Source: a virus
DNA: 42,831 nucleotides
IMG/VR virus record: IMGVR_UViG_3300023184_000236
Span: 1-42,831 of that record
Strand: one strand, 5' to 3'
How positions within the stretch are numbered: the stretch's first letter is position 1; each line of letters begins with the position of its first letter. A program made the translations under genes and the position numbers. Below the pieces are notes generated by a model, which saw nothing but the letters and a program-made list of their open reading frames with translations, ran no database searches and was not told the DNA's origin. Below are positions 1,994 to 35,377 of the stretch, piece by piece.

Positions 1994-2026
1994 AAAAACC
2001 CTGGAGTGTTTAGTTCCAGGGTTCTT
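1994..2026 (-). terminator. Rho-independent terminator
   Basis: Perfect 8-bp stem AACCCTGG/CCAGGGTT with an 11-nt loop, followed on the minus strand by TTT. It ends the short transcript that starts at the 2169-2197 promoter. Confidence 0.75.
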
Positions 2027-2050
2027 GTTAGGTATACGAATATAGTCTAA

Positions 2051-2161
2051 TCAGAACCCCGGTTCTCCTGGAATGCTGTTCGCAAAGCCATTGGCCAGCA
2101 ACCAGTTTGTTGACTGGAGGGACATGGGTTTCGTTGCTGAACAGAATTGTTGTTTCATCAT
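2051..2161 (-). CDS. 36-aa small ORF (or small RNA) in a promoter-terminator cassette
   Basis: ATG ATG AAA CAA... encodes 36 aa beginning MMKQQ with no recognised motif. The consensus promoter at 2169-2197 would start transcription at about 2162, so the mRNA would be leaderless; an AGGAACT Shine-Dalgarno-like sequence overlaps the region between -10 and ATG. The 165-nt transcript ends at the 1994-2026 terminator and contains an internal hairpin CCAGT/ACTGG. Either a leaderless microprotein or a small RNA. A second cassette of the same design lies at 6340-6524, with a peptide beginning MIKQ. Confidence 0.5.
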   Translation of the reverse strand: MMKQQFCSATKPMSLQSTNWLLANGFANSIPGEPGF

Positions 2162-2168
2162 AGTTCCT

Positions 2169-2197
2169 ATTATAGTTTATTTATCATTTGTTGTCAA
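2169..2197 (-). promoter_or_regulatory. Perfect sigma70 consensus promoter TTGACA-N17-TATAAT
   Basis: -35 TTGACA at 2192-2197, 17-bp spacer, -10 TATAAT at 2169-2174. It drives the short transcript ending at 1994-2026. Confidence 0.85.
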
Positions 2198-3074: not shown

Positions 3075-3149
3075 TGGTTGCAGAGGACGGATTCGCACCG
3101 CCGGTCCCCGGGTTATGAGCCCGATGAGATACTACTTCTCCACTCTGCG
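3075..3149 (-). tRNA. Initiator tRNA-fMet (CAT)
   Basis: Shows the bacterial initiator hallmarks: unpaired C1-A72 above the GCAGAG/CTCTGC acceptor, GGG/CCC in the anticodon stem (TCGGG-CTCATAA-CCCGG) and an fMet-like D arm. The T loop is TGCGAAT, a departure from the usual TTCGAAT. CCA is encoded. Confidence 0.9.
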
Positions 3150-3164
3150 TCATGAGTATTTAGT

Positions 3165-3336
3165 AAACTGTGTGGCCTACTGCTGTATGTTTAAAGGTAT
3201 CCACCTTCCTGAAGCATGAATTAAACTGTGACTAGCAGTTGTCGCGGCTCTCGCCCGTTCAGCGGCACAGGATCAATGTAAGTCCCCAGCAGTTGGGCCC
3301 ACCGTCAATGAGTTTTTGACAAAGGCCACACTGTTT
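3165..3336 (-). ncRNA. Stem-closed RNA element 3 (about 172 nt)
   Basis: Arms 3165-3178 and 3323-3336 pair at 13 of 14 positions (one A-A mismatch). Inner hairpins include GTCAA-AAACTCA-TTGAC and AAGGT-GGAT-ACCTT plus a GC-rich middle. No ORF, T arm or CCA. It fills the whole space between the initiator tRNA and the anomalous tRNA. No Rfam family is recognised by eye. Confidence 0.5.
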
Positions 3337-3340
3337 AACT

Positions 3341-3441
3341 TGGTAGGAGAGGTGGGAATCGAACCCACATTCGCCGCCTTATCTAGACGGTGCTTACTGG
3401 TGTATAAATCCAGCCCTTAGGCCAATATTAGCAACTCTCCC
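3341..3441 (-). tRNA. Anomalous 101-nt tRNA or tRNA-like gene
   Basis: Acceptor GGGAGAG/CTCTCCT, T arm GTGGG-TTCGATT-CCCAC and encoded CCA are perfect, but the core is odd. Fold A is class II with anticodon arm CTGGA-TTTATAC-ACCAG (anticodon TAT, A31-A39 mismatch) and a 27-nt variable region. Fold B uses CCGTC-TAGATAA-GGCGG as the anticodon arm with a normal 5-nt variable loop, but then the D arm is 41 nt and U33 is an A. Identity cannot be assigned. Its 5' base is the last base of the radical-SAM stop codon. Confidence 0.7.
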
Positions 3442-4553
3442 TAGTATTCTAAAAAATCTCTATGCGAATTACCGCGCACAGCATCTCTGCGTGAGACAGT
3501 ATCCACAAATTGTTGCCAACGCAGTTGATCAAATACAGCAGTTTCCAGTGCTGTTTTATATGCTGTGATCTCTGACTGTATATGTGGTGCAAGATCTTGT
3601 GACAACACACTGTTCAAATGCTCAATGGCCTGCTGTCTCAACGCAGGTGGCAAATTGGTTATTTCAAGATAATCTGGTTGCACTAATAAATCCAACATCA
3701 AATATGTGTTTATGCGTTGGGCCCATTTGATGATTTGACCAATGTGCATGATGTTTAAATTTTGCACAGTGCAGTGAATAACTGAGTTAACATTGGCACA
3801 TGTTATGATCTTTTTTATGTTGTGTTCGACTTGTGCAAACTTGCTGGGATAACGAATGTATTCGGACAACTCATTTATTGCATCCACACTCAACATCATC
3901 CGCACAGATTTGAATTTGCTCAATACTTGTTGCCATTGATCAGACCATGTTGTAGCGTTGGTAGTCAAGTGCAACAAGGTATTTCTAGCATGTTCTATTG
4001 GAAAAGCATCAAGCAATTCTAAAATTCGTTTGTTGTACAGTGGCTCGCCACCGCGAAGATGAATTACTCTGGGCCTGTAATCCAATATTTGTTGTAGGTT
4101 TTCAAACGCAGATTCGGACCAGGTAAATTCACGTTGATCCAGCACAGCAATGCCAAGTTGTCGATTTTCAGCCAAGATTGCACTGCTGTTGTACTCACTA
4201 CACATCACGCAAGACAAATTGCAAAGATTGCCTACTGCTATTTCAATATGCAGTATCCGCGATTGCATGGGCTTGGCACCAATGATTTTGTATTCCTTGG
4301 CTTGAACCTGTCTGATACTTTGTGTGCCTGACTGTTCTTGTTGCCAGCATCGTTGACAACCAGGATGTTTCCCATCCTGTTCAAAAGCCGACCTAACTTG
4401 TGCTAGGTAAGGATTTTGCATCCACTCATCCACACCAGTTTGATTAATATTTTGTCTGTGTTCTTTAGGAACTGGGTGTATGCAACAAATTTGATAGTCG
4501 CCGTTATTGCCAACACTGACATGGTTGAATGGCATGGCACAATAATTTTTCAT
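3441..4553 (-). CDS. Radical SAM protein with twitch-type N-terminus
   Basis: 370 aa. The N-terminus has a Cys-rich pattern (YCAMPF, ICC near residues 23-24, CQRC near 66-69), as in phage twitch-domain radical SAM proteins. The [4Fe-4S]/SAM motif C-NLS-C-VM-C follows at about residues 112-119, then HLRGGEPL. Substrate unknown: these enzymes modify peptides, sugars or nucleotides. No Shine-Dalgarno; CATACATA lies 4 nt before the ATG. It sits between tRNA-His and the anomalous tRNA, overlapping the latter by one base. Confidence 0.85.
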   Translation of the reverse strand: MKNYCAMPFNHVSVGNNGDYQICCIHPVPKEHRQNINQTGVDEWMQNPYLAQVRSAFEQDGKHPGCQRCWQQEQSGTQSIRQVQAKEYKIIGAKPMQSRILHIEIAVGNLCNLSCVMCSEYNSSAILAENRQLGIAVLDQREFTWSESAFENLQQILDYRPRVIHLRGGEPLYNKRILELLDAFPIEHARNTLLHLTTNATTWSDQWQQVLSKFKSVRMMLSVDAINELSEYIRYPSKFAQVEHNIKKIITCANVNSVIHCTVQNLNIMHIGQIIKWAQRINTYLMLDLLVQPDYLEITNLPPALRQQAIEHLNSVLSQDLAPHIQSEITAYKTALETAVFDQLRWQQFVDTVSRRDAVRGNSHRDFLEY

Positions 4554-4572
4554 GTTGTATGTATGATGTTGT

Positions 4573-4647
4573 TGGGGTGCGGTACCAGGATCGAACTGGT
4601 GATAGCGGAATCACAACCCGCGGTTTTACCACTAAACTAACTGCACC
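4573..4647 (-). tRNA. tRNA-His (GTG)
   Basis: Has the histidine-specific extra 5' G opposite discriminator C, anticodon arm GCGGG-TTGTGAT-TCCGC, T loop TTCGATC and CCA. One A-C mismatch in the acceptor (5/68). Confidence 0.9.
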
Positions 4648-4652
4648 ATAAG

Positions 4653-4729
4653 TGGCGCGACCAGAAGGATTCGAACCTCCCACCCCTGCGTTCGTAGCAC
4701 AGTATTCTATCCAAATGAACTATGGTCGC
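4653..4729 (-). tRNA. tRNA-Arg (ACG)
   Basis: Acceptor GCGACCA/TGGTCGC, anticodon arm CTGTG-CTACGAA-CGCAG (ACG, inosine-type), T loop TTCGAAT, discriminator G, CCA. Confidence 0.92.
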
Positions 4730-4737
4730 CGATTGAA

Positions 4738-4955
4738 TTTGAGAGCCTACGCCGCTTTTATCGTAGATTTATTCAGGACTTACCGGCCGCCTAGCCTGAC
4801 CTCGCTCGCGATGGATATCACTTGGGCACCTGTCCAGTTAGCAACCAATCTGCAGGAATCTTCCGATTCCCCGGGAGTTGAACCCGTCCCCTTTTACTAT
4901 TTCGGTAGTTCGAACTTACCTAGATAGCGTGACTGTACTTGCTGACACTCTCAAA
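4738..4955 (-). ncRNA. Stem-closed RNA element 4 (218 nt)
   Basis: Closed by a perfect 8-bp stem TTTGAGAG/CTCTCAAA that abuts tRNA-Asp on one side and tRNA-Arg on the other. It contains a T-arm mimic (ACGGG-TTCAACT-CCCGG at about 4871-4886) and a perfect GGAATC-GGAA-GATTCC hairpin with a GNRA loop. The mimic is not followed by an acceptor strand or CCA, so it is not a tRNA. Function unknown. Confidence 0.5.
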
Positions 4956-4958
4956 ACT

Positions 4959-5033
4959 TGGCGGTCTCAAGGGGTAACGATCCCCTTCTTTATGCGTGAC
5001 AGGCATACGTGCGTCCATGAACACTTTGAGACC
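4959..5033 (-). tRNA. tRNA-Asp (GTC) with unusual T loop
   Basis: Acceptor GGTCTCA/TGAGACC, anticodon arm TATGC-CTGTCAC-GCATA, discriminator G and CCA. The T stem AGGGG/CCCCT is intact but the loop is ATCGTTA instead of TTCGAAT, so it is easily overlooked. Confidence 0.88.
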
Positions 5034-5035
5034 AA

Positions 5036-5188
5036 TTTTTATAGTTAAGCACCGAGGACGCAAATTTAGGAGTCTGGGGCTTCCAGTCCATAGCCGATGC
5101 AGTTATGTCAGGATCCGTCGCCGGCCGCTTGGACCCGAATAGTGTGTGCGTCCACACACGATACCTTATCGGTGCTTAACTATAAAAA
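5036..5188 (-). ncRNA. Stem-closed RNA element 5 with a perfect 20-bp stem
   Basis: Arms 5036-5055 and 5169-5188 are perfect reverse complements (20 bp). Inside are GTGTGTG-GACG-CACACAC, a GGGTCC/GGATCC helix and GGA-CTGG-AAGCC-CCAG-ACTCC. GGACGC in the first hairpin is complementary to GCGTCC near the 3' stem, allowing a pseudoknot. No ORF. It completely fills the gap between tRNA-Asp and tRNA-Tyr. Confidence 0.6.
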
Positions 5189-5194
5189 CAAAAT

Positions 5195-5280
5195 TGGTGG
5201 AGACGGATGGATTCGAACCACCGCGCTTTTTAGGGGCCAGATTTACAGTCTGGTGCAATCAACCACTCTGCCACGTCTCC
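5195..5280 (-). tRNA. tRNA-Tyr (GTA)
   Basis: 86-nt class II tRNA: acceptor GGAGACG/CGTCTCC, anticodon arm CCAGA-CTGTAAA-TCTGG, T loop TTCGAAT, CCA. Confidence 0.93.
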
Positions 5281-5355
5281 AAAAAAGAGTAAGGGCAAGG
5301 TTGCAGAGCCTAGTGTCCCATTGCTGGGAGAAGTGCTCAGGCGATATGCCCTTAC
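5281..5355 (-). terminator. Long-loop terminator or stem-closed RNA element 6
   Basis: A perfect 9-bp stem GTAAGGGCA/TGCCCTTAC (5289-5297 with 5347-5355) encloses a GCCT/AGGC helix and CCCA-GCAA-TGGG, a GNRA hairpin. On the minus strand it is followed by TCTTTTTT, as in an intrinsic terminator, just after the gene ending at 5363. The U-run directly abuts tRNA-Tyr, so it may also belong to the RNA-element family. Confidence 0.5.
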
Positions 5356-5362
5356 AAAAACT

Positions 5363-5707
5363 TTACCGAGAACAAACAAACATACGGTCATGTCTGTTGT
5401 TTTTTTCTGCCCAGTAATCCCACTCTTTGTCGCGATAGAAATCAAAAAATTTGTCTGCCGCTGTTTCTGACGGAAAGTCCATCCAGCGGGCATGCACTAG
5501 ACCGTTGAAGTTGGGATTCAAACCTGGCTGTTTCAAGGCACCCCATGTTTCGTACTGCCAACGCTCAAACTCTTCCAATTCATCATCGTCGGGCAAGCAT
5601 TTGCTTTGAGGTCGTATTTCATTCACCCAATGATGATAGCAATGTTGGGAAATTTCATCCAATCGCTCATCCTCATACAGATCTATGCGCCAAACTGAAT
5701 ATTGCAT
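5363..5707 (-). CDS. Unknown acidic 114-aa protein
   Basis: The ATG at 5707 has AGGAG at 6 nt, so it is preferred over a GTG at 5713. Rich in Trp, Tyr, Asp and Glu, starting MQYSVWRIDLYED, which suggests a small soluble protein; no family recognised. It stands between tRNA-Glu and the element-6 terminator. Confidence 0.7.
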   Translation of the reverse strand: MQYSVWRIDLYEDERLDEISQHCYHHWVNEIRPQSKCLPDDDELEEFERWQYETWGALKQPGLNPNFNGLVHARWMDFPSETAADKFFDFYRDKEWDYWAEKNNRHDRMFVCSR

Positions 5708-5728
5708 ACTCACTCCTGTTGAACAAAA

Positions 5729-5804
5729 TGGTACACGGTACGGGATTCGAACCCGTGTGAATAGCGTGAAAGGCTACTATCCTAGGCCTCTAGATGAACC
5801 GTGC
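5729..5804 (-). tRNA. tRNA-Glu (TTC)
   Basis: Acceptor GCACGGT/ACCGTGT, anticodon arm GTAGC-CTTTCAC-GCTAT, T arm ACGGG-TTCGAAT-CCCGT, CCA. Confidence 0.92.
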
Positions 5805-5808
5805 ATAC

Positions 5809-5889
5809 TATATGAAAACACACTTCGGATACTGTACCAAACAGAAACTATCCACCACGGCCTATGCCGCTGAAGCGTGTTTACATATA
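5809..5889 (-). ncRNA. Stem-closed RNA element 7, three-way junction
   Basis: The 18-nt arms 5809-5826 and 5872-5889 pair with one mismatch and one wobble. The interior folds into CGGC-ATAG-GCCG and into GGATA/TATCC enclosing CTGT-TTGGT-ACAG, giving a compact three-way junction. The outer stem (TATATG-T-AAACAC / GTGTTT-T-CATATA) is shared with the next element. Confidence 0.55.
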
Positions 5890-5893
5890 ATTT

Positions 5894-6127
5894 ACTATAT
5901 GAAAATACATTAGGGAAGTTCTTGACACGCATCACCAACTTGCGTCAAGACCTCATTACATGCCTAGTTGTTCCGTCGCCTTCCTGGAGTTTGATAGTTC
6001 TTGCCCTTTGACTCGATGGTGTCTCGTCATACTCTAGAACCCTCCTGCTTCATGGGTATCCGGCGTGCGCTGTGTAGCCTTCGTTCACCCCTAACGGCTA
6101 GGTAACCCTAATGTGTTTACATATAGT
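5894..6127 (-). ncRNA. Stem-closed RNA element 8 (234 nt)
   Basis: The 22-nt arms 5894-5915 and 6106-6127 pair with two mismatches. Inner hairpins include TAGCC-GTT/AAC-GGCTA and CTTGACGC/GTGTCAAG. The outer stem is the same module as in element 7, with unrelated interior sequence. No ORF, tRNA, RNase P or group I intron signature was seen. Confidence 0.55.
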
Positions 6128-6154
6128 ACCCTGTAACTAGACAGGGACTATATG
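6120..6154 (-). repeat. Hairpin overlapping the arm of element 8
   Basis: CATATAGT-CCCTGT, loop CTAGTT, then ACAGGG-T-ACTATATG: a 14-bp stem with one bulge. Its ACTATATG strand (6120-6127) is the same strand that closes element 8, so the two pairings exclude each other. Confidence 0.55.
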
Positions 6155-6339: not shown

Positions 6340-6372
6340 AAAAGAAAAACCCGCCTAAGTAGCGGGTTTTTG
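6340..6372 (-). terminator. Strong intrinsic terminator
   Basis: AAAACCCGC stem with GCGGGTTTTT and a T-rich tail (TTTTTCTTTTTG) on the minus strand. The opposite strand also ends in TTTTT, so it may work both ways. It ends the cassette starting at 6496-6524. Confidence 0.85.
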
Positions 6373-6391
6373 CTTGAGTAGTACTTTCTTA

Positions 6392-6490
6392 TTAGGTACC
6401 ACTGCTCCCGCTGTTGATATAGGCCAGCGCCTCACGACGATAATCATGTGAGGGTATCTCAAAGGACAGTTGGGCGTTTTGCTTAATCAT
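6392..6490 (-). CDS. 32-aa leaderless small ORF (or small RNA)
   Basis: MIKQNAQLSF... 32 aa ending at TAA, 20 nt before a strong terminator. The ATG is 5 nt after the -10 of a TTGACT-N17-TATAAT promoter, so the transcript would begin at or next to the ATG, and there is no Shine-Dalgarno. The peptide contains SHDYRREALAYI, plausible as protein. Same design as 1994-2197. Confidence 0.55.
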   Translation of the reverse strand: MIKQNAQLSFEIPSHDYRREALAYINSGSSGT

Positions 6491-6495
6491 AGTGT

Positions 6496-6524
6496 ATTAT
6501 ATATGACATTGACTGAAAAGTCAA
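6496..6524 (-). promoter_or_regulatory. Sigma70-type promoter TTGACT-N17-TATAAT
   Basis: -35 at 6519-6524, 17-bp spacer, -10 at 6496-6501. The -35 lies in a palindromic TTGACT...AGTCAA segment. Confidence 0.85.
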
Positions 6525-6847: not shown

Positions 6848-6876
6848 AGTATATATTATTGTTGGCCCAGAGTCAA
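6848..6876 (-). promoter_or_regulatory. Promoter TTGACT-N17-TATACT
   Basis: -35 at 6871-6876 overlaps the stop codon of the hydrolase gene; -10 at 6848-6853. Followed by a 12-nt leader with a Shine-Dalgarno for the 31-aa peptide. Confidence 0.8.
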
Positions 6877-7469
6877 GACTTTTTTCCAAGCACTTGACCA
6901 ATTCGATCCAGCACAAGTTTGACTACCTGATTGCTGATCACAACTTCATAGTGATTTAGTGGCAGTTCTACCAGTTCAAAATCTGTACGATACTGCATGC
7001 TCTCTATAGTGACCACGCCATCATTGGGTTCATGTATCCAGGGACTGGCGCCACGTGTTGTAACAACCTGTGTCCAATTGGGAGGTGCTGGCAATTTTTT
7101 AGCATCAGACATGGGTCGACTCATGGGACCAATGTCTTTCATCAACCGGTTAAACGGTAAGAAATAACGTGCAAAATCTGCTTGCTTGCTGCCACCATAG
7201 GGTGTGCTAAGACTCACACCACCCACTGTGGTTTCACGGTAGTAGTTGGCTAGATGCAGGGCATAGATACCGCCCAGGCTGTGGCTCACAAAGAACAATC
7301 GATCCTCATTGTCCAACTGGCCTTTCATGGCTGTGAGATTGTGCTCAAATCCATCTTCACTGTTGTACTCCAATGCAGTGTCAGGTTCTTCTGTGTGGTC
7401 TCTAACAAACTGTCGGATATGCGTGAAACTTTCTGCGGTAGCACTGGCACCATGTATGTAAACTATCAT
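6873..7469 (-). CDS. Alpha/beta-hydrolase (lipase/esterase-like)
   Basis: 198 aa. VYIHGASA near the N-terminus is the oxyanion HG motif, FVSHSLGG (about residues 75-82) is the G/S-x-S-x-G nucleophile elbow, NDGV supplies an Asp and LNHYEV the catalytic His. Compact for the fold. The substrate could be a host lipid or an ester on the envelope. ATG 7469 is preferred over TTG 7484; it lacks a Shine-Dalgarno but has ATAAGTA 5 nt upstream. It lies directly downstream of the tmRNA terminator. Confidence 0.75.
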   Translation of the reverse strand: MIVYIHGASATAESFTHIRQFVRDHTEEPDTALEYNSEDGFEHNLTAMKGQLDNEDRLFFVSHSLGGIYALHLANYYRETTVGGVSLSTPYGGSKQADFARYFLPFNRLMKDIGPMSRPMSDAKKLPAPPNWTQVVTTRGASPWIHEPNDGVVTIESMQYRTDFELVELPLNHYEVVISNQVVKLVLDRIGQVLGKKS

Positions 7470-7474
7470 AGAAA

Positions 7475-7481
7475 TACTTAT
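7475..7481 (-). promoter_or_regulatory. Late-type -10 element ATAAGTA before the hydrolase gene
   Basis: ATAAGTA-N5-ATG, identical in layout to those at 1140 and 12149. Predicts transcription starting on the ATG. Confidence 0.4.
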
Positions 7482-7487
7482 CAAGAG

Positions 7488-7506
7488 AAACCCGCCGAAG
7501 CGGGTT
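7488..7506 (-). terminator. UUCG-loop terminator after the tmRNA
   Basis: AACCCGC-TTCG-GCGGGTT, a stem with the very stable UUCG tetraloop, followed by TCTCTTG. Marks the 3' end of the tmRNA precursor. Confidence 0.65.
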
Positions 7507-7507
7507 C

Positions 7508-7757
7508 TGAGTTTCTGTTACGAGGTATGTCTTACCCTAGGCGGCGTTTAGGCGGCCAATGCGAACTGTGAGTCGTTTGCTTTTACTTTTTTTGCTTGAT
7601 TAACGGTCATCGCCTACCGTGCTGTCCACTTCAATACTCCTGACCCAATCGATAGCCTGGTCACCCCCACCTAAATATACCTTATACACTTAGGTGGAGG
7701 TGGCGGGAGTCGAACCCGCGTCTTGAATCCATTTTTATCGGCTTCATACAGCAATAA
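7508..7757 (-). ncRNA. ssrA: Circularly permuted (two-piece) tmRNA
   Basis: Transcribed from a perfect promoter. The acceptor piece comes first: GAC-GCGGG-TTCGACT-CCCGC T arm, acceptor CACCTCC (7696-7702), then A-C-C. A 24-nt AT-rich linker (7669-7692) follows, then the coding piece starting GGGGGTGA (7668), which pairs with CACCTCC to rebuild the tRNA-like domain. A PK1-like ACGGT/ACCGT stem and an A-rich stretch precede the tag frame at 7548-7580: GCA resume codon, peptide A-N-D-S-Q-F-A-L-A-A, TAA. The ALAA end is the ClpXP degron of known tags. Ribosome rescue would need the host SmpB. Exact ends are estimated. Confidence 0.88.
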
Positions 7758-7762
7758 CTCGC

Positions 7763-7791
7763 ATTATATATTTATTTGGCTTTGTTGTCAA
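7763..7791 (-). promoter_or_regulatory. Perfect consensus promoter for the tmRNA
   Basis: TTGACA (7786-7791), 17-bp spacer, TATAAT (7763-7768). It overlaps the 3' end of the 7772-8029 gene, so the tmRNA can be made independently of it. Confidence 0.88.
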
Positions 7792-8029
7792 CCGGTATGT
7801 ATCCGCGAACAGCCCATTGTTTTTGTTTGTTGGCGTTCCAGTATCGAACAAACCCATCAGGTGTAAAGTGTTTTTTGAACTCTTCGGTTATGGAAATACA
7901 ACTGTTGAGATCTTGACCAGACATGGTTTGTAGCATGTACTTGGTATCACAGTCCCAGTAGTATTTTTCTAAATCTTCATAGTTGATGGCAGTTGCACTC
8001 AACACCACAGATAACAGTACAGCAAACAT
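7772..8029 (-). CDS. Secreted or periplasmic 85-aa protein, unknown
   Basis: A hydrophobic N-terminus MFAVLLSVVLSATA looks like a signal peptide with an A-x-A type cleavage site. The mature part is about 70 aa with two cysteines (DCD and SCI), possibly a disulphide. Start overlaps the stop of the upstream gene (TAATG). Its last codons carry the tmRNA promoter. Confidence 0.65.
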   Translation of the reverse strand: MFAVLLSVVLSATAINYEDLEKYYWDCDTKYMLQTMSGQDLNSCISITEEFKKHFTPDGFVRYWNANKQKQWAVRGYIPVDNKAK

Positions 8030-9319: not shown

Positions 9320-9403
9320 TGGTACGAGTAACCGGAGTCGAACCGGTACGCATCAAGCGGCGGATTTTAAGTCCGCTGGGTCTACCAATTCCCCCATACT
9401 CGC
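9320..9403 (-). tRNA. tRNA-Leu (TAA)
   Basis: Class II: acceptor GCGAGTA/TACTCGT, anticodon arm GCGGA-CTTAAAA-TCCGC, variable arm, T loop TTCGACT, CCA. Confidence 0.93.
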
Positions 9404-9416
9404 ATGCTGTATTTAC

Positions 9417-9491
9417 TGGTCCGGCGTGCAGGAATCGAACCCACATTCAAGAGGTAGAAGCTCTTTGTATTATCCATTATACTAACGCCAG
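9417..9491 (-). tRNA. tRNA-Arg (TCT)
   Basis: Acceptor CTGGCGT/ACGCCGG, anticodon arm AAGAG-CTTCTAC-CTCTT, T loop TTCGATT, CCA. Decodes AGA/AGG. Confidence 0.92.
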
Positions 9492-9495
9492 AATT

Positions 9496-9571
9496 TGGTA
9501 GGCCCAACAGGACTCGAACCTGTAACCAATGGATTATGAGTCCACTGCGCTAACCATTGCGCCATAGGCCT
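9496..9571 (-). tRNA. tRNA-Ile2 (CAT, probable lysidine type)
   Basis: Acceptor AGGCCTA/TGGGCCT, anticodon arm GTGGA-CTCATAA-TCCAT. The anticodon arm and variable loop (TTGGT) resemble E. coli tRNA-Ile2 more than tRNA-Met, so it probably reads AUA after host TilS modification. First gene after the 9580-9608 promoter. Confidence 0.82.
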
Positions 9572-9579
9572 ATGTTTGT

Positions 9580-9608
9580 ATTATAACAGAGAATTTATTT
9601 ATAGTCAA
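9580..9608 (-). promoter_or_regulatory. Promoter TTGACT-N17-TATAAT for the tRNAs at 9320-9571
   Basis: -35 at 9603-9608, -10 at 9580-9585. The 17-bp spacer itself contains TATAAATA-like sequence overlapping the end of the 9595-9975 gene. Confidence 0.85.
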
Positions 9609-14116: not shown

Positions 14117-14442
14117 CCGTTTTGCTTCACTCGCACATCAGTGTTCAGCGCAGGTGTGTACTTTTGTATTAACTCGCGCTCGAGCTTGTGTGCAACATCT
14201 TTGCCACGCACAATGTCCACGATTGCGTAGTTTACAGCGGCTTCACCTGCGGCACGAATTGCTTCGTACAGGTTCCAGCTCTTGTCTTCAGTGCGGGCGC
14301 GGTAGATGTGCTTGTTAACACGGCTACGAAGCGACATGTTTATGGTGCGCTGAGTTTTAGCGGTAATACCAATGTAGTACTCCAATCCAATTTGGATTGT
14401 GTACACAATGTGGGTTCGATCAGTGCGTTTCTTTCTCATCAT
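14113..14442 (-). CDS. GIY-YIG nuclease-domain protein, 109 aa
   Basis: [19 protein letters not shown] gives the two GIY-YIG strands; Arg in [11 protein letters not shown], and [13 protein letters not shown] carries the conserved Glu and terminal P..N motif. Almost only the nuclease domain, as in small free-standing homing or repair enzymes. Start ATG-ATG at 14442 lies 6 nt after a consensus -10, with no Shine-Dalgarno: predicted leaderless. Confidence 0.8.
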
Positions 14443-19352: not shown

Positions 19353-19751
19353 TTAACTGATCTCACTACGTCCGTCGCCAATGTCTCGGGTATGCACATA
19401 ACCACTCACAGATTTGCGCATGGCTTGTTCTTGTTCCCACGTTTCCATCACCACGTGTCTACACACGTTCTGGAACCAGCGGTCCACAATGTCTGAATCT
19501 GCATCTGTGGGCTTCATCATGTAGCCGGCCTTGACCAATCGTGCAATGAATATTTCATTCCAGTCTAGTTCGAATGCACCTTGATGCAAGTTGTTAGGAT
19601 CAATGTCCATGGTCACAATGGCCACATAAGGTTCGTTGTTCTCTGTGGCAATCTGTTTGGCAGTTTTTTCGGGTGCCTTGGGCACACGAACAACCTTTTC
19701 CTCTCGGACCACAGGTTCTGGCTTTTTCTTGAAGCGGTCAAACCATCCCAT
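19353..19751 (-). CDS. Unknown 132-aa protein
   Basis: MGWFDRFKKKPEPVV basic N-terminus, then IVTMDIDPNNLHQGAFELDWNE. Start is the TAATG junction with QueE. Similar proteins occur in marine T4-like phages without known function. Confidence 0.7.
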   Translation of the reverse strand: MGWFDRFKKKPEPVVREEKVVRVPKAPEKTAKQIATENNEPYVAIVTMDIDPNNLHQGAFELDWNEIFIARLVKAGYMMKPTDADSDIVDRWFQNVCRHVVMETWEQEQAMRKSVSGYVHTRDIGDGRSEIS

Positions 19752-20596
19752 TATTTGCCCCATCCGTTGCCCCAAAGGTCAACGTGTAATCGTGGACTGT
19801 ACCAGTAACCACGTCGTAGTGCTTCATCAGCAACATTGATCCTGTTGCCATCGTACACACTGACCACACCGCCCACAGGCATCACAAACACAGGCCCACC
19901 AAATTCACGCAAGCGATATTCATCCACTGCACGATCCAGTTCGTCAAAGTCTGCAATCTTTTCCACAACAAACTTGAGATATGTAACACCGTATGTTTCA
20001 TAGTCCCATACAACATCAGGCTTGATAGCATCTTCCCACTTCTCTCCTGACACACTTAGTTTGGGACTCACTGAGAAGGTGATCTCACCAAACCAGTTGC
20101 GCAAGTAGTCTCGGAATTCTCTAGTTAGATCTTGAGTACCATTGGTTTCGAATGTAATATGTCGCAGGCCACGTTCGTGCAATACGTCCAACAATTCTGG
20201 ATAAGCACGTTGCCAACCCAACAACGGTTCTCCACCTGTGATCACCAGGTGTACTGGATTACCATTGGGTTGCAGCCAGTTGCCATTGGGCAACAATGCA
20301 GTCATTTTGTCCACAAGTTCTTCCACTGTGTATGTGGGGCTCAGGTGTTTGAAGTCTGGGTGCCATGATGCATAACTGTCACAGCCTGTGTTCACCAGTG
20401 GCAGTTCTTCGAATGTTTTGTACAACTCCACAGTCTTGGCCACTTCATCTGCTTCTGTACTCCGCTCTCCAGGTTTACAACCAAATCCTGAACAGGTAAA
20501 GTTACAACCAAACATGCGCAAAAATATTGAGGGAACGCCAACATAGCGTCCTTCGCCTTGCGCCGAATAAAATAATTCTGATACTTTGAGTTTCAT
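19751..20596 (-). CDS. queE: 7-carboxy-7-deazaguanine synthase (QueE)
   Basis: 281 aa radical SAM enzyme making CDG from 6-carboxytetrahydropterin. Begins LKVSELFYSAQGEGRYVGVPSIF, the QueE signature, then MFG-C-NFT-C-SGFG-C, TGGEPLL and HITFETNGT. The third cluster cysteine is spaced CX3CX4C rather than the usual CX3CX2C. AGGAAACAC-ATG start. With FolE, the QueD-like proteins and DpdA it forms a DNA 7-deazaguanine pathway. Confidence 0.88.
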   Translation of the reverse strand: MKLKVSELFYSAQGEGRYVGVPSIFLRMFGCNFTCSGFGCKPGERSTEADEVAKTVELYKTFEELPLVNTGCDSYASWHPDFKHLSPTYTVEELVDKMTALLPNGNWLQPNGNPVHLVITGGEPLLGWQRAYPELLDVLHERGLRHITFETNGTQDLTREFRDYLRNWFGEITFSVSPKLSVSGEKWEDAIKPDVVWDYETYGVTYLKFVVEKIADFDELDRAVDEYRLREFGGPVFVMPVGGVVSVYDGNRINVADEALRRGYWYSPRLHVDLWGNGWGK

Positions 20597-23310: not shown

Positions 23311-24144
23311 TCACTTGGTAAAGTGTGCATGAGGATTGTCAAACTGTACCATTTGTTTGTTTACATCATTTTTGGCCAACTTCTCCCACGGGTCTTGTGT
23401 GCCTTTAAAAATGTTTTCAAAAAACTCAATACTGATTCCATTGTTTCGCATGTATGTGGCTAGTTTAGCACAATCTCTATGACGCAATTCAATCTGTGTT
23501 CGACTGTGAAAATCTGCTTCGTCAAACGGGCGACCCTCCAGTGATGCACGTTCTTTAAAGGTAGTATCGTTGTTGTTGCCTGTAATGTCAGCACGGTCAT
23601 GCAACACCCACACAGGTATGCGTTCCCAGATGTCCAACATGTATGCTTGCTGGCTCAGCCATCCATCTTGTACACTATGTGGACTGATGTAGCCCAACAA
23701 TTCATACCACTTGCGAGGTAAAATAGGGAAGATACTGTAAGGGTGATCCAAATGTGTATGAAACGCCAGCAGTTTAAACTCGCCTTCGTGCCGCATGATT
23801 TCTGTGTCCCACCCTTGTGTTTGCATCACAGCGTCATCGTTCCAAATCATCAACCAGCGAGCATCAGTGTGTTCAGCCAGTTTGTTGTTGTAGATGTGTA
23901 ACCTATGATAACCTTGGCGCCCAAACTGCATGGCAGTGTAGTTGAGTTCCTGTTCATCTAGCCATGGTTGTAGTTCGTTCTTGAAATATTCAGTACCTGC
24001 TGAGTCGTCATTGTCAAATGCAAACATCAACTGTAGTCGTTCAGGATGATCAGCCAGTTCAATTAAACTGCGAACACTGCGGCCCAGGCTGTCAGTACGG
24101 CCTCGTGTGGCCAACAACATTGCAATATCGTACTCAGGTGTCAT
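23311..24144 (-). CDS. Family-2-like (GT-A) glycosyltransferase
   Basis: 277 aa. MLLATRGRTDSLGRSV opening, FAFDNDD, and MIWNDDAVMQTQGWD giving the DxD-type site. Probably transfers a sugar to phage DNA or a surface glycan. Start overlaps the QueD-like stop by 4 nt. Confidence 0.7.
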   Translation of the reverse strand: MTPEYDIAMLLATRGRTDSLGRSVRSLIELADHPERLQLMFAFDNDDSAGTEYFKNELQPWLDEQELNYTAMQFGRQGYHRLHIYNNKLAEHTDARWLMIWNDDAVMQTQGWDTEIMRHEGEFKLLAFHTHLDHPYSIFPILPRKWYELLGYISPHSVQDGWLSQQAYMLDIWERIPVWVLHDRADITGNNNDTTFKERASLEGRPFDEADFHSRTQIELRHRDCAKLATYMRNNGISIEFFENIFKGTQDPWEKLAKNDVNKQMVQFDNPHAHFTK

Positions 24145-24638
24145 GCAAATAAATCCTCATTCCATTCTCTATGGCCTTCACGGAAAGCCATGTTGCTTTG
24201 TGTTTCACGAACTTCTACTCGGTAACACCACAAGCGATCAGCTTCGCCTGGACCCCAGTAGTCGGGTATGTACACACCGTTGACATATTTGTACAGCATG
24301 TCTGCTAGTCCTTCACAACCCACTCTGGGCAGTATGGTCAATTTGGCCAGTTTCTTTTCCTGCAACAACAAGAATGTTTCAAATTCTGGATCATCTTGAG
24401 ACACCAACAATGTGTGATCAAATTGATCTTCCAACACTGACTTGAGTTCTTTGAGACCGCCATAGTCGGCAGCCCAGTTGCGTACATCCAAAGTGTCTGT
24501 GCCAAAGTAGAACTTCATTGAAAAACTGTAACCATGTATCAAGTTACAGTGGCTGTCAGCTCGCCACTGACGATATGCACATGGAAATGCATCGTGATAT
24601 TCTTTGGTACTGGTATATTTGTAAGTTACGGGTGTCAT
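24141..24638 (-). CDS. queD: QueD-like (PTPS-family) protein, degenerate zinc site
   Basis: 165 aa with the T-fold layout: CNLIHGY (catalytic Cys kept, second His of HGH changed to Tyr), CAYR where AHR is normal, FDHTLL (Asp/His), GCEGLAD (Glu) and VRET near the end. Expected reaction is dihydroneopterin triphosphate to 6-carboxytetrahydropterin, but the zinc ligands are lost, so function may have changed. AGGAG start. Confidence 0.7.
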   Translation of the reverse strand: MTPVTYKYTSTKEYHDAFPCAYRQWRADSHCNLIHGYSFSMKFYFGTDTLDVRNWAADYGGLKELKSVLEDQFDHTLLVSQDDPEFETFLLLQEKKLAKLTILPRVGCEGLADMLYKYVNGVYIPDYWGPGEADRLWCYRVEVRETQSNMAFREGHREWNEDLFA

Positions 24639-27065: not shown

Positions 27066-27182
27066 TTAAGTTAATTCTACCACTCTATATTGGCTAGCAG
27101 GATAGTGTTCCTGCAACCACTCCAAAAGCCCTGGTTCCCAAGGCAATCGAATCTCGCCTGTGATGTTTGTGATTATGGTCAT
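27066..27182 (-). CDS. Unknown 38-aa protein
   Basis: MTIITNITGEIRLPW... to ...RVVELT. Its ATG overlaps the FolE stop (ATGA) and its stop is just before the AAGGAG of the next gene, so it fits the operon. Likely real though small. Confidence 0.5.
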   Translation of the reverse strand: MTIITNITGEIRLPWEPGLLEWLQEHYPASQYRVVELT

Positions 27183-27919
27183 CTTGGTGCAAACTCCTGT
27201 TGTAGTTTGATATTGTCCATGAATTCTTTTTTCACACTGTCATCTTCTTTGAACGCACCCCGCAACACAGTGGTCTGAGTCAATGAACTGTGTGCCATGA
27301 TACCGCGATTCTCGCAACAACCATGTATGGCCTGTATATACACACCAACATCTTGTGATGCAGTTGCCGCCATGATCTCGTTGGCTATGTCAATACACAG
27401 TTCTTCTTGTAAGGTACCTCTGCGACTACACCATTGCGCGATACGGGTGTATTTGGACAGTCCAATGAGCTTGGAGGCTGCGATGATTCCAATATAGGCC
27501 ACACCGGATACAGGCTGATGATGATGACTGCACATACTACGAAGTTCACTACGAACAACGAGCATACCTTCATATCTGTCTGCTGAGTCGTTGGGAAAAG
27601 CGGTTGCGTCCGGCGCTGGTTCATATCTACCTGCCATTATTTCGTTGTAGTACATTTTGGCCAAGCGCCGTGCTGTGCCTTTTGAGTTAGGATCGTTTTC
27701 CCTGTCGATCAACAGCGCATCTAGTACTCGTTCAAATGCTTCTGTGGCTTCATCGATCAAGGCAGATTTGGTTGCAGGTGTGATGTATTCGCTGACATTA
27801 TCTCCAGCCCAGAAGCGTCTGTTGTCTCTACGCATTTTATTGCGAATGACCTGCGATAAGTTTTTACTTGTGTCAACGACTTCTTCATCGTTGCTTTCAT
27901 ATGCTTTGTTGTATACCAT
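27179..27919 (-). CDS. folE: GTP cyclohydrolase I (FolE)
   Basis: 246 aa. CSHHHQPVSG, GLSKYTRI and CCENRGIMAHSSLTQTTVLRG are the zinc-binding and catalytic motifs. Converts GTP to dihydroneopterin triphosphate, first step of the 7-deazaguanine route. AGGAG start and a dedicated promoter. N-terminal 45 residues are extra relative to the core domain. Confidence 0.9.
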   Translation of the reverse strand: MVYNKAYESNDEEVVDTSKNLSQVIRNKMRRDNRRFWAGDNVSEYITPATKSALIDEATEAFERVLDALLIDRENDPNSKGTARRLAKMYYNEIMAGRYEPAPDATAFPNDSADRYEGMLVVRSELRSMCSHHHQPVSGVAYIGIIAASKLIGLSKYTRIAQWCSRRGTLQEELCIDIANEIMAATASQDVGVYIQAIHGCCENRGIMAHSSLTQTTVLRGAFKEDDSVKKEFMDNIKLQQEFAPR

Positions 27920-33357: not shown

Positions 33358-33854
33358 AGTGGTTGATCTTCCTTGTAGTCATCCCAACTAGTAAAAGTCT
33401 CACGGCTCATTAGGCTGTGTAGACTGTGGCACCAGACGCCGGGATTGGTAGCGTCAAAGTCCTTGTCATCTATTTTTAACATTGTATTATAATTCCACAG
33501 TTTTGTATACGGTACACTTACTCGAATCTGTGGAATAAAGTTGCGGAAGTCACACAAGCCGCCATCATTAAATTCTTCCACTGCACTAATGGGAATGTCC
33601 AAGGTACACAAGCGACCACGTTCCAAAAAGTACGTGATCATCTTTTCCCACTCACGCCACTCTTCTGGAGACTGAGGATTGAAACTGTGATTGGCACCAA
33701 AGAAGATGTGTTGGTCTACATCTTCTAACTTGGCGGCAATAGCGTCCACTGGCTGCACACCCACAACGAACAAGGTTCGTCGACCAAATGCTGGTGTGCG
33801 TTCTACTTCTGTTCCGGTAAAGAAGTTGACATCATCGTGTCCTACTCTGTTCAT
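33354..33854 (-). CDS. Unknown 166-aa protein upstream of the DpdA gene
   Basis: Contains FVVGVQPVDAIAAKLEDVDQ and HIFFGANHSFNPQSPEEW. A coupling overlap with DpdA suggests a role in base insertion or recognition, but no domain is recognised. Confidence 0.68.
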   Translation of the reverse strand: MNRVGHDDVNFFTGTEVERTPAFGRRTLFVVGVQPVDAIAAKLEDVDQHIFFGANHSFNPQSPEEWREWEKMITYFLERGRLCTLDIPISAVEEFNDGGLCDFRNFIPQIRVSVPYTKLWNYNTMLKIDDKDFDATNPGVWCHSLHSLMSRETFTSWDDYKEDQPL

Positions 33855-35377
33855 ACTGTGGCTTCCAATTTATCAAGTTTACTAGAATCAAAATCTTCTT
33901 GTTCAGTTTGTTCGTATTCAAACAGTGCATTGAATTGTGTACGTGCATTCATGGCTTTCTTGCCTTTGAAACCACGTGTGCCCACAATCTCCATCCAATA
34001 ATTGCTGTATTTCTCAATAATGGCTTCTGAATCCTCACGTGTGGGTGCGGCAAAAATGGCTTCCACAATATCTTCAAACTTGGCATAGTCTCCGCCTTGT
34101 CGACGCATCATAGCAGGATGTTCTCCGGCATCAAATCGTCTATTGGCTTCTTGCACAGCAGTCAAGTGCATCCAAACATTATGGCCCATTAACAATGCAT
34201 ATGAGAATGAGTCCCACGATGTCTTGCCTTCTTTGCCATTCTTATTTAGATCGCCTGGTGCATAGATGCAGATGTCTTTCATCTTTAACATATCGCTGAT
34301 CGGGCTATCTTCCCAGCGTGGATAAATGCCATCGGCAATTACTCCGTCTCGCCACTTGCGTGTGTCTGTGGCATACTTCTTGTCATCTGCACTAGGAGCC
34401 ATTCTATAACTCCACTTTGAATCATGCTCGTACACATTTTCAAAGTAAACTTGTCCATTGGCTGTGGCGAGGAATGGGCTGGCACAATCAAAGGAGATAG
34501 TAAATTCGGGGTTAGCGTATTTTCTAACTGCTCTTTGAATCACGGTGAGTAGCACAGCCCATTCCAACTTTGAAGTACCCAAGAAGTGCATCCAGTCATG
34601 CACACCAGGTTGCAACAATCCATCATACTTGAGTGCGATCAATCTTTTCAGCACAAGATGAACGTCGCACATGTTCTGTCCACCCATGGCCCAGCCATCA
34701 AAGTGTGTGTCTGGATACTTTGCAGGGTCGCAGTACTCTTTCATGGTTTGATACCATGTTTCTGCTGATGTGTGGTTGTCGCCCTGCAACACGTTTAGAA
34801 ACTTGGCACCACCGTTTTTCTTTCCTCGACGATGAGCCATAAAGTATTCGTTGTTGAACTTGGTGGCATCCACTGCTTCTTCAAGTGTTCGAATACCACA
34901 AGCATCACTGGCTTTCTTGTCGTGAATAACCCATGTGGGAATATCAAGAATCATGCCGTAGTCCGAAATAGTATCCAGCCACTTCAAGATAGAACTGCGT
35001 TTCTTTTCAGCCTTGGCACAACCTGAGTTGGCCTTCCAGTCGCCTTCCCACAGGCCTTTGGCAATCTGGAATCCGCCAGAGTCGCCTAACACAAATGTGC
35101 CAGGCTCTCTATTACGAACCATGTCCTCTGACCAGTCCTGCTTGGTCAAGTCCAAGTTGGCATGTCCACCGGAATACAAACTCCATCGATATGGAAACAA
35201 TGCTTTCTGGCTGTTGAGCCAGTTCATTTGTTCCATGTCAGTGAGACCTGCAGGAAAACGTGCAGGATCCACATACGACTCGTTGCGTTGTTTGCCTATG
35301 AACGTGGCATAGAAACCTGATATGGCTGGTAAGAACACAGCATAATCATTTTGCTTGGCTGTTAGATTATCTTGCAA
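33851..35377 (-). CDS. dpdA: DpdA-like DNA 7-deazaguanine transglycosylase
   Basis: 508 aa, TGT fold. VLGDSGGFQIAKG is the TGT substrate-binding motif, TISFDCASPFLA the nucleophile region, and ALLMGHNVWMHLTAVQEAN the C-terminal helix of tRNA-guanine transglycosylases. Likely swaps guanine in DNA for a 7-deazaguanine. The start is a TTG at 35377, since the next ATG is 47 codons in and a GGGGT-like Shine-Dalgarno precedes the TTG; it overlaps the DUF2061 gene by 11 nt. Confidence 0.8.
   Translation of the reverse strand: MQDNLTAKQNDYAVFLPAISGFYATFIGKQRNESYVDPARFPAGLTDMEQMNWLNSQKALFPYRWSLYSGGHANLDLTKQDWSEDMVRNREPGTFVLGDSGGFQIAKGLWEGDWKANSGCAKAEKKRSSILKWLDTISDYGMILDIPTWVIHDKKASDACGIRTLEEAVDATKFNNEYFMAHRRGKKNGGAKFLNVLQGDNHTSAETWYQTMKEYCDPAKYPDTHFDGWAMGGQNMCDVHLVLKRLIALKYDGLLQPGVHDWMHFLGTSKLEWAVLLTVIQRAVRKYANPEFTISFDCASPFLATANGQVYFENVYEHDSKWSYRMAPSADDKKYATDTRKWRDGVIADGIYPRWEDSPISDMLKMKDICIYAPGDLNKNGKEGKTSWDSFSYALLMGHNVWMHLTAVQEANRRFDAGEHPAMMRRQGGDYAKFEDIVEAIFAAPTREDSEAIIEKYSNYWMEIVGTRGFKGKKAMNARTQFNALFEYEQTEQEDFDSSKLDKLEATV

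Follow-up and report, generated by a model that had tools for sequence, protein, structure and literature searches.

Putative leader-peptide attenuators with multi-amino-acid sensors upstream of phage tRNA operons

Overview of the leader units

The phage sequence analyzed here (IMG/VR record IMGVR_UViG_3300023184_000236, 42,831 nt in full, hereafter the window) contains two short transcription units on the minus strand, each with a sigma-70 promoter, which serve as leaders of its two main tRNA operons. These units very probably represent ribosome-mediated transcription attenuators that would turn on a phage tRNA operon when the tRNAs it encodes are scarce. This reading is drawn from the sequences of 51 distinct leaders. 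In each of them the end of a short open reading frame (ORF) can pair with the 5' arm of the following terminator, and the amino acids of the leader peptides match the tRNAs encoded downstream.

tRNA operons and leader units of the window

On its minus strand, the window contained 18 tRNA genes identified by ARAGORN, one more tRNA-like hit, and a permuted tmRNA within the first 9.6 kb. The DNA polymerase of the window was nearest to those of the jumbo phages Phosso and Atu_ph07 (~50% identity). tRNA operon 1 (55–1802), located downstream of leader 1, comprised the genes for Trp (1802–1729), Ala (1720–1646), Ser(gct) (1606–1517), Asn (1509–1434), Thr(tgt) (1221–1148), Lys(ctt) (446–369), Lys(ttt) (364–288), Met (210–135), and Ile(gat) (128–55); in relatives, this operon extends beyond the point corresponding to the window edge. 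tRNA operon 2 (3075–5804), downstream of leader 2, comprised Glu (5804–5729), Tyr (5280–5195), Asp (5033–4959), Arg(acg) (4729–4653), His (4646–4573), the tRNA-like hit (3441–3344), and Met (3149–3075). A third tRNA operon (9320–9608) is leader-free: its promoter (9608–9580) is placed directly on the first tRNA, and the genes for Met, Arg-tct, and Leu-taa occupy 9571–9320. The tmRNA also has a strong promoter directly in front and no leader.

Unit 1 extends from its promoter at 2197 to the end of the terminator near 1994 and has the composition reported in the preliminary description. Its perfect TTGACA-N17-TATAAT promoter (2169–2197; TTGACA at 2197–2192, TATAAT at 2174–2169) is followed after 7 nt by ATGATG. 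The ORF of 36 codons (2051–2161; MMKQQFCSATKPMSLQSTNWLLANGFANSIPGEPGF, with STNW..LAN..ANS) ends with a UGA stop, and the terminator consists of the stem 2023–2015/2005–1997 and a U tract. Within the first 15 kb of the window only two promoters matched the consensus at 12 of 12 positions, those of leader 1 and the tmRNA. Unit 2 (6524 to 6345) had been described as having the same design. This was correct for the ORF of 32 codons (6392–6490; MIKQNAQLSFEIPSHDYRREALAYINSGSSGT, containing HDYRRE, UAA stop), the terminator, and the leaderless layout, with the ATG 5 nt past the -10 box, but its promoter, TTGACT-N17-TATAAT (6496–6524; TTGACT at 6524–6519, TATAAT at 6501–6496), is an 11/12 match rather than a perfect one. 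Both peptides indeed begin with MxKQ, and ACTATGAT forms the 5' end of both units. Transcription of leader 1 is predicted from the spacing to start at the AUG or within ~2 nt of it. Since the AUG lies 5–7 nt past the -10 box in most leaders, their transcripts are probably leaderless or nearly so.

The RNA folds of units 1 and 2 were more stable than 200 of 200 shuffled sequences (z = −4.1 and −3.8, respectively). Comparison of homologues, including synonymous and nonsynonymous changes, had been suggested as a check, and it supported the reality of the units: both were kept in relatives with 84%–92% identity, every indel in the ORFs preserved the frame, and pN/pS was 0.55–0.64, as expected if they evolve as ORFs. 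On the other hand, the units are not stand-alone elements, as had been proposed, since each precedes a tRNA gene cluster.

Occurrence of the leaders among phages

The first relatives were collected at 71 related loci, using the neighboring alpha/beta-hydrolase-like gene (6873–7484) as bait, and further leaders came from the regions around tRNA arrays in other records. A search of IMG/VR by the promoter-ATGATG pattern alone returned short ORFs with a terminator ~50–63 nt past the stop, nearly all of them upstream of tRNA genes in contigs unselected by homology to the window. Altogether, IMG/VR phage contigs yielded 51 distinct leader peptides with 71 occurrences, grouped by shared 4-mers into 20 families. 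The ORFs ranged from 21 to 50 codons, and all leaders were located upstream of tRNA arrays. Many of the contigs are fragments, and therefore the arrays may be cut. When the strict design was defined by fixed criteria, 42 instances had a tRNA gene within 2 kb downstream, and none was found elsewhere in the 3.47 Mb of strand comprising related and control loci. The 20 families have little primary sequence in common; they share only the logic of alternative pairing.

Outside this collection, no match to unit 1 was found among cultured phages by BLASTN, and the neighboring hydrolase was likewise absent from them. A tblastn search with one leader as the query gave no meaningful match, and the radical-SAM neighbor used as bait revealed no related loci. 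Among cultured jumbo phages, the five with the closest DNA polymerases (Phosso, Atu_ph07, Vibrio 2.275.O, CBB, and XbC2) contained tRNA arrays and no such leader in the same scan. In bacterial genomes, the promoter-ATGATG pattern gave 0 leaders out of 120 among the matches listed; one bacterial short ORF considered as a candidate was rejected because it ran into a tRNA.

Mutually exclusive antiterminator and terminator helices

In unit 1, the final ORF codons through the first base of the UGA (strand A, 2053–2062, CCGGGGTTCT) are complementary to the terminator 5' arm (strand B, 2016–2025, AGAACCCTGG). Strand B can therefore pair either with A, forming an antiterminator, or, through 2023–2015, with strand C, which together with the U tract occupies 1994–2005 (TCCAGGGTTTTT), forming the terminator. 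In unit 2, strand A (6396–6412) consists of AGCGGG (6412–6407) and AGTGGTAC (6403–6396) in the last codons of the ORF, and is complementary to strand B (6361–6384), composed of GTACTACT (6384–6377) and CCCGCT (6366–6361). The terminator of unit 2 (6345–6371; AAAAACCCGC TACTTAG GCGGGTTTTT) excludes the 6412–6407/6366–6361 helix. Thus, A:B and B:C are mutually exclusive, and a short ORF predicted to be translated lies directly upstream of the terminator.

This alternative is a property of the whole collection. When the RNA spanning the ORF end through the terminator 5' arm was folded, B paired with A in 51 of 51 leaders. The A:B duplex was better than those of dinucleotide-shuffled A regions at p < 0.05 in 37 of the 51 (median p 0.015), and its energy of −17.8 kcal/mol compared with −11.6 kcal/mol (sd 0.67) when partners were swapped between families (P = 0.0005). 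Among relatives of unit 1, two A:B pairs have undergone two-sided changes. The terminator showed one two-sided change, at a column that also turned a G-U pair of A:B into G-C. Sequences of the unit 2 family are too similar for covariation to inform either helix.

In all 51 leaders, a ribosome positioned at the stop codon would have at least part of strand A within its footprint, and the sensor codons are located upstream of A. A 1:2 protector or pause hairpin, as in the trp and his leaders, was not general among these leaders: RNA upstream of A paired with its own A (−10.05) much as it did with A of other families (−10.14; P = 0.55). Such a hairpin is outside the minimal attenuation mechanism, but without a protector for A the ribosome-free state would allow read-through into the array.

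Correspondence between leader residues and operon tRNAs

The HDYRRE stretch of leader 2 precedes an operon with tRNAs for Glu, Tyr, Asp, Arg, and His (plus Met). To quantify such matches within one phage, we considered only amino acids whose tRNA occurs in one of the two operons. In all 13 two-operon records the leader was enriched for the set of its own operon, with permutation P values of 0.0002 (L081), 0.0004 (L082), 0.003 (L216), 0.006–0.009 (L063, L008, L009/L010, L012, L175, and L222), 0.011 (L220), 0.028 (the window), and 0.083 (L014). Combination by Fisher's method of one record per clade (the window, L014, L222, and L081) gave ~5e-6, an approximate value because the clades share ancestry. 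The pair of leaders in L081/L082 illustrates the partition. One of them, MLNAKLLPGNTGPATEDTPRP, precedes tRNA genes for Gly, Glu, Leu, Asp, Met, Ala, Val, Thr, Met, Pro, Gly, and Asn, and its GNTGPATEDTP stretch matches the Gly, Asn, Thr, Pro, Ala, Glu, and Asp tRNAs. The other, MMNKTISISKQSWCSQQSLSFSVSKFMSYRHILGACPG, precedes Ser, Trp, Met, Arg, Cys, Met, Lys, His, Phe, Gln, Ile, Trp, Arg, Leu, and Ser, of which Gln, Ser, Trp, Cys, Phe, Arg, His, and Ile are matched by QSWCSQQSLSF..RHI.

Swapping arrays among 20 family representatives gave P = 0.0002, the floor for 5,000 permutations, with a mean z of 4.9, and 18 of 19 amino acids occurred more often in the leaders of operons with the corresponding tRNA, Ile being the exception. 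Every stretch upstream of A matched its own array (0.63–0.71) better than other arrays (0.51–0.53). Inside strand A the two values were equal (0.50 and 0.50), which is expected since these codons must serve pairing. The correspondence concerns amino acids and does not extend to codons: those that isoacceptors of the operon can read were not enriched in the leaders (248 of 418 versus 239.7 expected, z = 0.9), with Thr and Pro up and Ser and Val down, and some leader residues have no matching tRNA in the operon.

Gain and loss of tRNA genes were accompanied by changes in the leaders. In L014 and L023, leader 2 lacks H and R and keeps D, Y, and E; operon 2 of these phages encodes exactly Glu, Tyr, and Asp (plus Met in L014), in agreement with a prediction made beforehand. 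Arg-acg is absent from the available sequence of both, and tRNA-His of L014 is located in operon 1, whose leader reads MKHTM. Among homologues of leader 1 (the SIPG family), leader 1 is free of H in six close relatives whose His tRNA belongs to operon 2, and H is present in this leader in L014, L107, and L287, all with tRNA-His in operon 1. In L287, the homologue of unit 1 gained H, Y, and R (MMKTQYCSLLPKFAQTPVWSHAYGRMNSIPGGRGS) together with tRNA-His, tRNA-Tyr, and Arg-acg in the operon. In the leader 2 family, HDY was extended by in-frame insertions to HDLHDYARE (L175), HELHDYRRE (L317), and HESDYRRE (L338). Mismatches also occur: the leaders of L014 and L107 include R and Y, respectively, in front of operons without the corresponding tRNA.

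The Glu/Asp tRNA operons of L107 and L460 had no leader of the attenuator design. In L460, where a D/E leader was expected, the place was instead taken up by the end of a porin-like gene with its terminator and by a promoter region of another kind. These operons, with Asp/Glu tRNAs, are located at 1–914 of L107 and at about 14,300–14,860 of L460 (reverse complement). Their upstream regions contain promoters followed by ACTAGTTAG and a boxA-like TGTTCTTTAA or GTTCGTTAA, resembling the control region of rRNA operons. The outer-membrane-porin-like ORF of L460 (end at about 14,120–14,376, reverse complement; ..TYAQVLYRTVEGTSAATDVKQVAGGLVVQF) is just upstream of the tRNA genes, and its presence in a jumbo phage contig may hint at a betaproteobacterial host.

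Proposed mechanism and alternative explanations

According to the proposed mechanism, transcription by host RNA polymerase would begin on or close to the AUG, with immediate loading of a ribosome. With ample charged tRNAs, the ribosome would reach the stop codon and cover A, allowing the B:C terminator to form and leaving the array off. If an amino acid listed in the leader became limiting, presumably through depletion of its tRNA in the infected cell, the ribosome would stall upstream of A; A:B would then form, the terminator would be blocked, and polymerase would continue into the tRNA genes. The array would be read as well without any translation. The geometry is the same as in the trp and his operons, and hence scarcity of a listed charged tRNA should switch the array on. 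In this reading, the residues of the leader have co-evolved with the tRNA content of the operon.

Because the polarity is deduced from geometry, the reverse response might be considered, in which stalling at sensor codons favors termination and scarcity of tRNAs silences the array. We regard it as quite unlikely: A coincides with or adjoins the stop codon in 51 of 51 leaders, where it would be covered by a ribosome at the stop and left free by one stalled several codons upstream, and this is the order of events in trp and his attenuation (PMC1183508). Another explanation, improbable but the one to be taken most seriously, is that the leader senses overall translation and that its match to the array follows incidentally from a shared preference for amino acids or codons. 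It would be in line with A:B forming on ribosome-free RNA in the absence of a protector hairpin, with the mixture of many amino acids in large single-array leaders, and with the non-significant match at the codon level. A genome-wide preference, however, cannot explain why two leaders of one phage split amino acids as their operons do, or why homologous leaders gain and lose H, R, and Y along with the tRNA genes.

The preliminary description had offered two further possibilities, leaderless microproteins and abundant small RNAs, and both now appear very improbable. The in-frame evolution of the ORFs under mild constraint (pN/pS 0.55–0.64) would suit stand-alone microproteins, but the peptides are poorly conserved, often start with MM, and vary with the operon and its tRNA content. 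Their terminal codons are fixed by RNA pairing, and they always occur upstream of tRNA genes together with the A:B alternative; no strict match was found away from tRNA genes. Trans-acting small RNAs ending at the terminator would account for the strong promoter, strong terminator, and stable fold, and terminated leaders may well accumulate as short RNAs. Nevertheless, little primary sequence is conserved across families, only the A:B/B:C logic being common to them, and there was no Rfam match. Moreover, the indels are in frame, the leaders are associated in cis with tRNA genes, upstream of which all of them lie, and the terminators constitute half of a terminator/antiterminator alternative. 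Attenuation of the tRNA operons thus remains the preferred reading.

Whether the arrays act as an on-demand emergency supply is more evenly balanced. According to this view, a multi-amino-acid leader would detect depletion of the very tRNAs that the operon replaces, for example, upon cleavage by host tRNA-targeting defenses, and selection would rewrite the sensor whenever tRNA genes are gained or lost.

Comparison with known regulatory systems

In trp and his attenuation, rapid passage of the ribosome to the stop codon masks region 2 and the terminator forms, while stalling at regulatory codons frees region 2 and results in the antiterminator (PMC1183508). The phage leaders resemble this ribosome-mediated attenuation as it occurs in E. 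coli trp, S. typhimurium his, leu, thr, ilvGMEDA, and pheA. Unlike these systems, which control biosynthetic enzymes, the phage leaders precede tRNA genes and would sense many amino acids at once, with one to few codons for each. They also differ in that the AUG is placed at the predicted transcription start, no general 1:2 protector hairpin was found, and the composition of the leader turns over with the tRNA array. Several amino acids per leader are also found in the ilvGMEDA and thr leaders and the pheST leader peptide, the last being a case of attenuation of the aminoacylation machinery. In having several amino acids in one leader the phage units are similar, but the targets of those leaders are enzymes or a synthetase, and the amino acids sensed number one to three, whereas the phage leaders precede tRNA genes and list five to fifteen. 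T-box riboswitches likewise sense tRNA charging and control termination, but they bind tRNA directly, without a leader ORF, and no T-box match was found in the window. The best explanation of the leaders is a trp/his-type attenuator applied to phage tRNA genes and provided with a multi-amino-acid sensor. We found no precedent for it in the open-access literature on attenuation, leader peptides, and phage tRNA.

The reason for the presence of tRNA genes in phages has been a matter of debate for more than 50 years (PMC10264068), and tRNA arrays have been considered as a counter-defense against tRNA-cleaving systems (PMC10264068, PMC11555353). The same genes and the same need, replacement of tRNAs lost in infection, are involved here; the counter-defense literature that we found addresses tRNA function, and a sensor-controlled promoter for the array was not found there. 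A leader listing the amino acids of its tRNAs would name the signal to which the phage responds, namely, too small a supply of these very tRNAs. Such a system would place tRNA genes under the control of leader-peptide attenuation with a many-amino-acid sensor, and the parallel changes of sensor and array in dozens of phages would amount to an evolution experiment run by nature. What phage tRNAs do would become testable with reporters in laboratory strains, and the timing of array expression predictable.

Other features of the tRNA region

The permuted beta-type tmRNA (7484–7804, minus strand; tag ANDSQFALAA) is located between tRNA operons 2 and 3 and has a perfect TTGACA-N17-TATAAT promoter at 7791–7763. 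Related phages also have a permuted tmRNA. Being next to the operons, it could rescue ribosomes stalled under the same conditions. The tRNA-like gene at 3344–3441 (minus strand), missed by ARAGORN, has a long variable arm and apparently a 9-nt anticodon loop (RF00005, 40 bits); in this part of the operon relatives have Leu(tag), Ile(aat), His(atg), or a CTA anticodon.

Long inverted repeats, with up to 20/20 bp and enclosing spacers of 23–190 nt, were found between tRNA genes at 5036–5188, 208–291, 5878–6143, 1829–1881, and 3164–3337. These spacers look like structured processed RNAs, had no Rfam match, and one of them, ACATTAGGGTTACCTAG...CCCTAATGT, recurs in L460. An Rfam search of the whole window at gathering thresholds returned tRNA and tmRNA only.

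Elsewhere in the window, ORFs at 19751–20596 and 33851–35377 appeared by eye to be QueE-like and TGT/DpdA-like, with no Pfam match. Pfam identified GTP cyclohydrolase I (27179–27919, minus strand) and a 6-pyruvoyl-tetrahydropterin-synthase/QueD-type protein (24141–24638, minus strand), suggesting a 7-deazaguanine pathway.
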